A stretch of 64,000 nt of DNA, from the IMG/VR virus record IMGVR_UViG_3300025646_000015, positions 1 through 64,000 of that record, one strand, 5' to 3'. Below are positions 2,389-55,183 of the stretch, piece by piece. Source of the DNA: a virus. Under the pieces are notes generated by a model. It was not told the origin of the DNA. It worked only from the letters and a program-made list of their open reading frames with translations, and did not search any database. Numbering within the stretch: the first letter of the stretch is position 1; every line of letters starts with the position of its first letter. Position numbers and translations under genes: made by a program.

Positions 2389-2414
2389 ATAAAGTTTTAA
2401 TTTTTTTAAAGGCG

Positions 2415-2531
2415 TGCCATACGTGGCAGGAGTCGAACCTGCAAGAGGATAGTTGGCTCTGCAAAGCTCACCTCTCTTATCTCCCCTCAATTGCAGTTAA
2501 GGCAGAACACGTTGGCATATATTAAAGAACT
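2415..2531 (-). ncRNA. tRNA-like small RNA with its own promoter
   Basis: A perfect T-arm (stem GCAGG/CCTGC, loop TTCGACT) is followed by CACGTATGGCA, which pairs with TGCCAACGTG at the 5' side (TGCCA/TGGCA plus CGTG/CACG, one mismatch region). The middle forms an AAGAG/CTCTT-type helix enclosing a small hairpin with TTGCAG in the loop, but no standard D-arm or seven-base anticodon loop can be drawn; a Cys (GCA) anticodon is only a guess. A promoter 17-bp spaced directly upstream supports real transcription. Could be a degenerate tRNA or a tRNA mimic. Confidence 0.5.
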
Positions 2532-5108: not shown

Positions 5109-5498
5109 TTAAAATGAAAAAACTTTTCTACCATCTAAAAGAACTGCATCAGCACTATGAACTGAACTACCACTCTCTTTCTCGTAGAAGAATTCGTTTT
5201 TATATGGGTTGTATGTAACTTCTGTTCCAAAGTTCTCGTTTAATATAGTATTAAACAACTCACTTATGTATCCTTTAATAAAAGCATGAACATTCTTTCT
5301 CCTTTCTTTAATTACTTTTTCCCTGCCCGCTTGATTTACAATAAATTCGCAATCAAATAATTTAATTAGATTAGTGTGAGCTTTAACTAATCCATCCTGC
5401 TGAACACTCCAACATTGTTTATGTAGATTACGATAAACTTTAATTGGTTTATTTGGATTAATTTTATATCTTGGGTCGTTAGCTTTTGTTGATTTCAT
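5109..5498 (-). CDS. Hypothetical protein, 129 aa
   Basis: Contains VYRNLHKQCWSVQQDGLVKAHTN near residues 19-41, a segment typical of a conserved phage/plasmid family of unknown function. An ATG at 5528 exists, but it would lie inside the -35 box; promoter geometry (TTGACA, 17, AATAGT, six bases) points to the ATG at 5498. Confidence 0.65.
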   Translation of the reverse strand: MKSTKANDPRYKINPNKPIKVYRNLHKQCWSVQQDGLVKAHTNLIKLFDCEFIVNQAGREKVIKERRKNVHAFIKGYISELFNTILNENFGTEVTYNPYKNEFFYEKESGSSVHSADAVLLDGRKVFSF

Positions 5499-5504
5499 AT
5501 ACCA

Positions 5505-5533
5505 ACTATTACATAGGTAGTGATTCATGTCAA
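5505..5533 (-). promoter_or_regulatory. Sigma70-type promoter, leaderless geometry
   Basis: TTGACA, 17 bases, AATAGT, then six bases to the ATG at 5498. Confidence 0.6.
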
Positions 5534-5542
5534 ATAAAATAC

Positions 5543-5586
5543 AAAAAAAATCCTCCCCCGAGCCAAAAGGAAGAACTCAGAGGAGG
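5543..5586 (-). terminator. Rho-independent terminator of the ncRNA
   Basis: An 11-pair stem, CCTCCTCTGAG with CTCGGGGGAGG (some G-U pairs), followed by ATTTTTTTTG. Confidence 0.8.
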
Positions 5587-5926
5587 AAGGAGGGGATAAA
5601 CCACGGAATAAAATAGATGTGGGGAGGGACTACTGAATACCCTCAACTTTTGGCGTGAACATCAGTTCAATGTGTAACCTACTCGCACTACACTTGGATT
5701 GGACATCCTACCTCAGACATTTGTCCATCAGCACTCCACCATAGAGAAGCATATACCTTATCTCGAACACGAAGAGACATTCGGGTCACCCACAGGAAGG
5801 ATTATAAGCCCTTCCAAATTGGATGGAGCAAGTCGGCGCCCGATACTCAGTTGCCAACTTATTTGCTCCAAATTAAAATGTTAAAGATCAATTTATTTGA
5901 TTTGATTGAGTTTGTTTCTCAATTAT
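5543..5926 (-). ncRNA. Structured non-coding RNA of about 384 nt, family not recognised
   Basis: The stretch has no supportable gene but has a perfect consensus promoter and ends in a strong terminator. It is clearly GC-richer than its surroundings. Helices visible on the minus strand: TGGAGCAA/TTGCTCCA (5824-5870) enclosing GTTGGC/GCCGAC; GGAAGG/CCTTCC; GGACA/TGTCC; TGAAC/GTTCA. Near the 5' end, 5879-5889 reads GATCTTTAACA, resembling the boxA antitermination element of rRNA leaders. The conserved cores of RNase P RNA, tmRNA, 6S RNA and group I introns were looked for and not seen. Confidence 0.7.
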
Positions 5927-5932
5927 TTATCT

Positions 5933-5961
5933 ATTATATACTATTATTTAATATTTGTCAA
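5933..5961 (-). promoter_or_regulatory. Perfect consensus sigma70 promoter of the ncRNA
   Basis: TTGACA, 17 bases, TATAAT: the only promoter in the window with a perfect match to both hexamers. Start predicted near 5926. It overlaps the end of the lipoprotein gene at 5944. Confidence 0.85.
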
Positions 5962-6162
5962 ATTATTTTTTGAAATATTTTGTTGTTTATTAAATTGATT
6001 TAAATTTGGATCATGGCAAACATAACAGATTCCATGTCCTGCTTCGGGACAACTATGATCTTTATATTTAACATGAGATAATATCGGGCACTCTTTATTT
6101 ATATAATTATTTTTAGTACATCCTATATTAAATAGAATAATTAATATTAAAACACATCGCAC
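5944..6162 (-). CDS. Small cysteine-rich lipoprotein candidate
   Basis: 72 residues. The N-terminus MRCVLILIILFNIGC is a short signal with a lipobox ending at Cys15. The mature part has Cys24, Cys38, Cys46, Cys49 in a pattern GICYVCHDPN that could bind metal. It overlaps the end of the gene at 6147 by 16 bases and carries the ncRNA promoter in its 3' end. Function unknown. Confidence 0.55.
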   Translation of the reverse strand: MRCVLILIILFNIGCTKNNYINKECPILSHVKYKDHSCPEAGHGICYVCHDPNLNQFNKQQNISKNNLTNIK

Positions 6163-24261: not shown

Positions 24262-24693
24262 TCAATACCAACAACTATAATAAACGCGCCACTTCTTGTC
24301 AAGCATTTTTCTTGCTTCTTCTACGAACATTAAGTCATTCTTCTTGTACCAATAGTCGTTTTCGGGATATGGTTCGTCATTTTCATCGTTCCAAAAATAA
24401 GAATCACTACCCCAAAAGAAACCACTAGCTTCGGGGAACTCAAAATTATTGATAGCATATTCAAGTTCATCTATATCTTGAGAAGTTAATGGCAACTCAA
24501 CACAATTAAATGCACTACCGAAACCTAATTCATCTTCAGTTAAGTCGGGCATATTTGGACAACCCTTGTTTTCCCAAAGTTGTTGCATCCAACCTTGCAA
24601 GCGATTGTGTTTGCGCCATTCCATTATTTGAACATCGTCCTCGCTATTCCTCTTGCGAGGTGGACGAGCGTAACCATATTGATCTAATCCCAT
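24262..24693 (-). CDS. Conserved phage protein of the MGLDQY type, 143 aa
   Basis: Begins MGLDQYGYA, then MEWRKHNRLQGWMQQLWENKG, FNCVELPLTSQDIDELEYAI, SGFFWGSD and a C-terminal aromatic run. This signature marks a widespread phage and bacterial protein of unknown function. GGGAGAAAGC precedes the ATG. Confidence 0.75.
   Translation of the reverse strand: MGLDQYGYARPPRKRNSEDDVQIMEWRKHNRLQGWMQQLWENKGCPNMPDLTEDELGFGSAFNCVELPLTSQDIDELEYAINNFEFPEASGFFWGSDSYFWNDENDEPYPENDYWYKKNDLMFVEEARKMLDKKWRVYYSCWY
24274..24302 (-). promoter_or_regulatory. Sigma70-type promoter inside a coding region
   Basis: TTGACA, 17 bases, TATAGT; 13 bases to the ATG at 24260, so a leader of about six bases. Confidence 0.65.
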
Positions 24694-24714: not shown

Positions 24715-24987
24715 TTAGTTCCAATTAAAGTCTATATTATAACCTACTGCACGACGCTTGTCAATGTTTTTCGATGGACAAGTAACCTCGATGCAAATAT
24801 CACGCCCAAGAGAATCACCTTCTAATATCGGTGCGCCTTCTTTATCCATTTCTTCTACCCAATCAATATTTAGATCATCAGATGGAAAGAGATCATATTC
24901 TGATTCGTCATCCAACCACATGATTGGTGCAGACCAAATATCTTCATCATCTTCTTGCCTAATTGTGAGCCAACTATTTACTTTCAT
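24715..24987 (-). CDS. Acidic hypothetical protein, 90 aa
   Basis: Starts MKVNSWLTIRQEDDEDIWSA; acidic, with DICIEVTCPS and a basic end. Function unknown. Confidence 0.6.
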   Translation of the reverse strand: MKVNSWLTIRQEDDEDIWSAPIMWLDDESEYDLFPSDDLNIDWVEEMDKEGAPILEGDSLGRDICIEVTCPSKNIDKRRAVGYNIDFNWN

Positions 24988-52535: not shown

Positions 52536-52946
52536 TGGTGGAGGTGGCGGGAGTTGAACCCGCGTCCTGATCGCCTGCAACGATCACATCTACAAGTTTA
52601 GTTGATTTTTTTTATAGTTAAGATATCAACATCCAACTAGCCATTTCAATTATTTACAGTTTATGATATGGATAAATTTTTATCTGTTTTGGCAGATTAG
52701 TGACCCCGCAATCTTAATATCTGCGTCAAAAGTTGCGAGGGGGCAGCTTTCAAGCTACCATCTCAAGCTCTTCAGCTTGCTCGAATTGTACGAGATTGTC
52801 GTACTCTTCACGAGCAGCTTCAAGAAGCTCTTCTATGCTATAATAACCTTCGGCATGTATAGCTTGTGTGTCTTGATATCGGAGCCTGACACATCTCCGA
52901 CTTGCAGTGAAAGAATTCGAACGTCAGTCAAATCCAGAACACCCCC
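52536..52946 (-). ncRNA. ssrA: tmRNA with an unusually long tag
   Basis: 411 nt. Acceptor stem GGGGGTG/CACCTCC with discriminator A and encoded CCA; T-arm GCGGG/CCCGC with loop TTCAACT; 5' D-like TTCTGGATTTGACTG. Pseudoknot 1: TCGGAG/CTCCGA and TGTGTC/GACACA. Eleven bases later GCC at nt 93 (52854-52852) is the likely resume codon, close to nt 90 in E. coli. The frame then runs 34 codons, starts AEGYYSIEELLE, and ends QAEELEMVA before TGA (52752-52750). Usual tags end in ALAA and have about ten residues. Confidence 0.9.
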
Positions 52947-52981
52947 ATAAAATTTTAAAGAACTAAATATAGTTTACACTT

Positions 52982-54379: not shown

Positions 54380-55183
54380 TTAAAACCCAAGTAGTTTTTG
54401 AAATTTATTATAATCCACAAAATCTTCTAATGTATTGCTATTAGAATCGTTTTGTGCGATATTAATTAATTGTCGTTTATTTGACATCCATTTCCTTCCT
54501 GTCCAAACTTGTACTCCTTTAATGTAAGATTTGTATTGAGAGGGTGTTTCGCTATACACTCCGATGTATAAGTATTTGAAGTTAAAGCGTTTACAAAGCT
54601 CGACTTCTAAATGGTTGGATAAATTGCCGAGAGATAATTGTGGCTCAGAGTAGTCCCAAAAAAATAAACCCGAAACTAAAGAGTGACCAACTTGAGTCAT
54701 TGCGGTACAGGCAATTATTTCATCGTTTAGATAAAACAAAATGAAATGACTACTATCATCAACAACATATTTAAGAAAATTTTCTTTATCTAATATATCT
54801 TTGTAATTTTTGTGTGTTACATAGTTGTTATATATAGAATAAAGTTTATCTTTTATTTGATCTCTATCTGATTTTATATTTAAATCGCCAATAGTAATGT
54901 ATTTGTAAGAAAAATTATTTAATTTTAATGCTTTTAAGTGCTTACTTTTTGCGCGGAACTTTTCGCATTCGATTCTTGCGCTTCTTAATTGACACCAAAT
55001 TTGTTTATTATTTGCTTCACTTTCGTTCACAAATTCGCAATCGTTGGTATAGAAATATGTGGGTAGCCAACCCGTAGCTAGGGCTTCATCCTCTTCGCCA
55101 CTATCAACCCAAGCAGAAATAAGAGTATAATTAAAGTCTGTATCAGCTTGCTTAGAAATAACATGGTCATAAAATATTTTCAT
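54380..55183 (-). CDS. GNAT-fold protein resembling arginyl/leucyl-tRNA-protein transferase
   Basis: 267 residues. The C-terminal half (about 165-235) reads SLVSGLFFWDYSEPQLSLGN, then LEVELCKRFNFKYLYIGVY and IKGVQVWTGRKW; this order (aromatic-x-D-x-S/P-x-x-S-L-G, Y-L-Y-I-G, Y-K) is that of ATE1/Bpt enzymes that add an amino acid to protein N-termini. The CxxC N-terminal domain of those enzymes is not seen. It may transfer an aminoacyl group to a glycan or protein; inference. Confidence 0.5.
   Translation of the reverse strand: MKIFYDHVISKQADTDFNYTLISAWVDSGEEDEALATGWLPTYFYTNDCEFVNESEANNKQIWCQLRSARIECEKFRAKSKHLKALKLNNFSYKYITIGDLNIKSDRDQIKDKLYSIYNNYVTHKNYKDILDKENFLKYVVDDSSHFILFYLNDEIIACTAMTQVGHSLVSGLFFWDYSEPQLSLGNLSNHLEVELCKRFNFKYLYIGVYSETPSQYKSYIKGVQVWTGRKWMSNKRQLINIAQNDSNSNTLEDFVDYNKFQKLLGF

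Follow-up and report, generated by a model that had tools for sequence, protein, structure and literature searches.

A divergent manA RNA in a marine virus genome, probably encoded as a stand-alone noncoding RNA gene with a boxA-like leader

The manA motif (Rfam RF01745) was listed by Weinberg et al. in 2010 as a cis-regulatory element and possible riboswitch (PMC2864571). A correction to its Rfam structure followed in 2020 (PMC7779021), and the motif is still classed as cis in a 2025 review (PMC12197685). Our literature search, in which subscription journals were thinly covered, returned no paper treating manA as an independent transcript. A second described element is boxA, for which the published consensus GYTCTTTAANA is gamma-proteobacterial (PMC5725501). 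Here we report a locus at which both elements are found, within a stretch of viral DNA of 64,000 nucleotides (the window). The manA family itself is known; what is new here is the architecture of manA as an independent gene.

The unit is intergenic and spans positions 5961-5543; it and all of its parts lie on the minus strand. Its predicted transcript of ~384 nt would start from a sigma-70 promoter, is structured and GC-rich, and would end at an intrinsic terminator. The promoter (5933..5961) is a perfect TTGACA-17-TATAAT with a predicted transcription start at ~5926. The original prediction had also called it the only one in the window, and this part did not hold, since a second perfect copy exists at 24764-24736 (-) where 0.08 are expected in shuffles of 64 kb. 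That second promoter (24736-24764) precedes an ORF that begins near 24691, and a structured RNA is not apparent there. A leader hairpin read from the sequence, ATTGAG-AAACAAA-CTCAAT (5905..5923), stands in a boxB-like place ahead of the boxA-like motif match GATCTTTAACA (5879..5889), which is kept in relatives. Comparison with relatives then delimits a variable slot of 63 nt that holds a single long hairpin (GGAGCAA...TTGCTCC; 5816..5878), and a covariance-model match together with covariation delimits the manA RNA core (5614..5815, model positions 1-192). The intrinsic terminator (5543..5590) comprises a 12-pair stem followed by T8, together at 5578-5543. The next gene has a separate promoter (TTGACA-17-AATAGT with TG in front; 5505..5533), 17 nt past the first T of the T-run, and encodes a Phage_L5_gp82-like protein of 129 aa (5109..5498; E 3.2e-33) that is not thought to be part of the RNA. 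For this downstream ORF, start 5498 is preferred over 5528, because 5528 is inside the gene's own promoter and relatives begin at the equivalent ATG.

Several properties claimed for this stretch from its letters, namely the lack of a gene, the higher GC content, the strong helices, the terminator, and the boxA-like signal near the 5' end, were borne out. GC content is 42% in the transcript and 46.5% in the core compared with 30.8% in the window, and only 0.24% of windows of 386 nt are equally GC-rich. The fold of the transcript is more stable than 100/100 shuffles (z = -2.46). On the RNA strand no frame is open for more than 40 codons, and the ORF on the opposite strand overlaps the slot, which is exchanged in the relative L021 while the core is 97% identical; a protein encoded in the RNA was rejected on both grounds.

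The RNA had been called unrecognised, and an Rfam scan had been proposed as one check, with a significant match to a known family named as a ground for giving the prediction up. At curated thresholds the scan gave no match at the locus. A permissive scan did give such a match, to manA RF01745, at 5815-5614 (49.0 bits, E = 1.7e-11), spanning model positions 1-192 of 192, and this locus is the sole copy in the 101-kb virus record. The curated manA cut-off is 55.2 bits, and the window (49.0) and L021 (49.1) are both below it. However, L013, whose core is 92% identical to that of the window along its whole length, scores 71.1 bits, and 20/21 relatives exceed the cut-off when whole records are scanned, at 68-93 bits (highest 92.9). 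As judged from sequence and model scores, the window core is thus a divergent member of manA with its own score just under the cut-off. Covariance models applied to 5400-6100 up to E = 10 found nothing besides manA and one chance match, and the exclusion of tmRNA, RNase P RNA, 6S RNA, and introns in the original prediction agrees with the lack of any match to these at 5400-6100. No manA match above the cut-off was found in 14 control genomes.

Relatives were collected by a pattern from the 3' end of manA, which gave 16 viral contigs (10 pass the manA cut-off), and by a 31-base stretch from the manA 5' hairpin, which gave 40 viral contigs. A Hydrogenophilales contig (L035) was discarded as a chance pattern match without manA. 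In blastn against phage records, neither the locus nor the core of L017 had a match, and the two window proteins that were tested had none in isolate phage records. A further protein of the window (54380-55183, minus strand) carries an ATE_C domain of the arginyl/leucyl-tRNA-protein transferase family; it has no match in phage records and is found in two viral contigs only, at 79% identity. Some of the pattern hits proved to be weak, longer manA-like matches of 31-35 bits, on the minus strand of L008 (6360-6659), L009 (9297-9596), and L014 (5113-5412), 10-15 nt upstream of tRNA-Arg or tRNA-Thr genes.

Alignment of 34 distinct manA cores supports the fold, and the A2 and A3 cores were also treated apart because the two length types misalign. 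In A2, the type of the window (10 sequences, 61 pairs), 98.5% of cells are paired and 10 pairs have changed on both sides; in A3, the other type (23 sequences, 58 pairs), 97.7% of cells are paired and 20 pairs have changed on both sides. For each type, 0/500 shuffles reach the observed paired percentage, both-side counts, or covariation score, and at most 50% of cells pair once the helix partners are slid. Because the structures had been derived from the very sequences under test, these figures are favoured somewhat; the Rfam model provides independent support. The helices comprise the P1 hairpin, a UGUGGG/CCCACA closing helix, and internal helices that agree with the Rfam consensus. The multi-helix structure closed by a GGG/CCC helix, with compensatory changes, by which manA is recognised is therefore present in the window's group. 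Two further likenesses were dropped: a resemblance of UAAGGU...AAUUCC to 23S rRNA helix 71, in which the AAUUCC part is not conserved, and an anticodon-like reading of the P1 loop CUUAUAA, which is replaced by other loops in L007, L020, L036, and cyanophages.

The whole arrangement recurs in about 40 related viral loci in the order promoter, leader hairpin, boxA, slot, manA, terminator, and fresh promoter. A sigma-70 promoter, mostly matching at 10-12 of 12 positions, lies upstream of boxA. The leader hairpin TTGAG...CTCAA is kept in most relatives, is absent in four, and carries a compensatory change in L061 (CTGAG/CTCAG). boxA is found in 40/42 manA units, the misses being L045, which is without boxA, and L040, which is cut by the contig end. 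The terminators of relatives are unrelated in sequence and occupy the same place as in the window, in most loci the next gene's TTGACA promoter lies 7-18 nt past the first T of the T-run, and the next start codon follows ~42 nt after that promoter. Loss of the promoter or helices, which the original prediction had named as a ground for abandoning it, was not seen; both are kept, with compensatory changes.

In seven relatives (L007, L015, L017, L050, L052, L055, and L061) the loop of the leader hairpin is complementary to the stretch before boxA. This complementarity covaries (GGAT/ATCC, GAGGC/GCCTC, AGAT/ATCT, and AAGCT/AGCTT), and it is possible that the two form a pseudoknot in this subset. 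A universal leader pseudoknot was rejected, as the complementarity covaries only in a long-loop subset, to which the window does not belong. Extra, apparently structured sequence lies between manA and the terminator in L040, L047, L050, L058, and L067, and L058 and L067 have one such sequence in common (GGACTGAAACG...GTAGCGGATTTCGTAGTCTGGTTATTTCATCGCC).

In relatives the slot is either empty (12-14 nt) or filled with 37-220 nt of structured sequence, for which a long closing helix is common, and the modules sampled had no Rfam match. Identity between L021 and the window is 90-92% on both sides, 96.5% in the core, and 94.7% in the terminator, but the slot of L021 is unrelated (42%). Conversely, L013 retains the core (92%) and the slot (94%) but resembles the window neither in the terminator (51%) nor in the flanks. 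Slot and terminator are therefore exchanged independently, and the slot may carry a host- or phage-specific part, a speculation drawn from this pattern of exchange.

These exchanges bear on the view of manA taken by Weinberg et al. (PMC2864571), which at this locus would mean that a metabolite sensed by manA sets read-through of the terminator into the gp82-like gene. In favour of such an attenuation riboswitch, a terminator does come after the manA core, and some cyanophage and viral copies stand directly before genes. However, in a riboswitch whose expression platform is the terminator, core and terminator would be expected to stay linked, so that swaps independent of a 92-97% identical core argue against it, and the unrelated terminators on the 92% identical cores of L013 and the window make a conserved antiterminator pairing unlikely. 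Moreover, the window has a terminator and a new promoter between manA and the next gene, for which reason we do not file its manA as a riboswitch, and the downstream gene families differ, falling into ten groups by blastp. We consider such an attenuator unlikely at this locus. In 27/42 units the next gene nevertheless belongs to one small protein family, mostly of 84-103 aa (MKTLKDILSNYGYI...), with its own promoter (e.g., L007, L013, L017, and L057). Some link between manA and the next gene is thus possible, and this family is a possible partner of manA.

Cyanophages provide a second group of manA copies. Although P-SSM2 and 16 other cyanophage/marine virus records, obtained with the P-SSM2 manA as query, are not 17 independent cases because some are close relatives, 17/17 have a sigma-70 promoter matching at least 10/12 positions before manA, a score reached by 0.7% of random positions. 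The -10 box ends 7 nt before the first base of manA (17 records; two cases scored as 5), and the predicted transcription start coincides with that first base in 17/17 of the cyanophages sampled. The surroundings vary: manA precedes purL in P-SSM2 and transaldolase in P-RSM6, has tRNA-Asn within about 10 nt downstream in AG-345-F15, and in some cyanophages sits downstream of the major head protein gene. In S-CREM1 its start is 1 nt from the end of tRNA-Leu and its far end meets the first base of tRNA-Asn; in P-TIM68 the annotated gene that follows is encoded on the opposite strand. Both placements count further against the riboswitch. In several cyanophages (P-SSM2 and P-RSM6 among them), as in L005, L037, and L061, manA stands ahead of an ORF with no hairpin terminator between them, an arrangement in keeping with cis-regulation at these loci. 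Some cyanophage copies could still be mRNA leaders, but as a description of manA in general, cis-regulatory is not suitable.

Transcription starting at manA's first base, together with its position ahead of tRNAs or mRNAs in several cyanophages, would also suit a leader for processing or stability, with manA serving to protect the 5' end and so to stabilize or insulate the downstream tRNA or mRNA. Such a role appears very improbable, because the RNAs of the window's group have a terminator ahead of the next gene, and a core of ~200 nt with many invariant unpaired bases exceeds a stabilizer's needs by far.

The boxA element connects manA with other structured RNAs. The window copy GATCTTTAACA has one mismatch (A for Y) to GYTCTTTAANA, a gamma-proteobacterial consensus that may not be the host's, and the copies in L007, L015, L017, L036, and L047 match it exactly (GTTCTTTAATA, GTTCTTTAACA). 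In L036, a Neomarinimicrobiota MAG and the sole cellular contig, the 16S gene is not preceded by a consensus boxA. It might be argued that the element arises by chance and that the locus yields an ordinary sRNA of the phage, with no antitermination involved, since the window's count of GWTCTTTAANA is unremarkable (3 copies against 1.25 expected). Yet all three copies directly precede a structured RNA, namely the manA leader, a tmRNA, and a tRNA-like RNA. The tmRNA (52536-52963, minus strand) has boxA GTTCTTTAAAA 6 nt upstream, and a boxA-like motif lies 15-19 nt upstream of tmRNA in 12/14 loci (relatives and window), where 0.009 are expected per 60 nt. At 2410-2530 (minus strand), boxA GTTCTTTAATA precedes a conserved, unannotated tRNA-like RNA (~2516-2410) with a long acceptor-like helix, the T-arm GCAGGTTCGACTCCTGC, and its own promoter-like sequence; it has no Rfam or ARAGORN match, and its counterparts in L020, L021, and L022 share about 93-95% identity with it. 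With the motif also conserved in 40/42 manA units, we doubt that chance accounts for it. The boxA leaders on manA and on phage tmRNA suggest that phages may draw on the rRNA antitermination of the host to shield their structured RNAs.

We consider it likely that the locus is an independent noncoding RNA gene of the manA family, with a finished RNA that most likely acts in trans. On this point the original prediction of an independent structured noncoding RNA gene stands, and its placement outside known families does not; its suggestion that the RNA may be abundant and regulatory or structural would suit the architecture. Homology, covariation, the conserved order of elements, and the independent exchange of slot and terminator are direct observations; expression, Nus recruitment, and action in trans we infer, and the best reading is an early, Rho-protected, trans-acting noncoding RNA. 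Host RNA polymerase would initiate early at the consensus sigma-70 promoter. The hairpin and boxA just past the start resemble their counterparts in rRNA leaders and would be expected to load the host NusB/S10 complex, with which the long untranslated RNA would escape Rho termination and fold well. The variable structured slot and then the manA core, closed by its UGUGGG/CCCACA helix, would follow, and the intrinsic terminator would stop the RNA ahead of the next gene's separate promoter. Stable and folded, the finished RNA would act in trans, with the slot module tuning it to phage or host. Built as an independent, rRNA-style transcript in this phage and its relatives, manA probably functions as an RNA itself and not as a leader that controls a gene. 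More tentatively, it is conceivable that manA, tmRNA, and the tRNA-like RNA form a boxA-marked RNA regulon borrowing host rRNA antitermination, that manA is a mobile trans-acting RNA whose slot carries exchangeable modules selected by the host, and that the riboswitch-candidate label is wrong family-wide. If, at least in this large marine phage group, manA is encoded as a gene of its own, the search shifts from ligands to trans targets, and this reading is directly testable in the cultured cyanophages P-SSM2, P-HM2, and S-CREM1.

When compared with the described manA motif, the window RNA has a like fold over all 192 model positions, shares the GUGAC, UAAGGU, GGUG, and GGUAU.CAGUA.UCC stretches and a marine phage setting, and differs in its P1 loop (CUUAUAA versus GACG in most cyanophages). 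Whereas the motif was introduced as a candidate cis-regulator or riboswitch in 5' UTRs, the transcript in the window is terminated and combines a boxA leader with an exchangeable slot. The wcaG and other RNAs of S-CREM1 (PMC9964418) are likewise phage-borne, structured, and located near tRNAs and manA; wcaG is a different family from manA and was not found in the window by the Rfam scan. A likeness in arrangement is to the rRNA leader with boxB/boxA (NusB/NusE; PMC5725501), in which promoter, hairpin, boxA, and a long untranslated structured RNA follow one another as they do here, and the motif GWTCTTTAANA is common to both. Unlike rRNA leaders, the window unit is phage-borne, carries one boxA mismatch, and ends at an intrinsic terminator, and the binding of Nus factors to it is putative.
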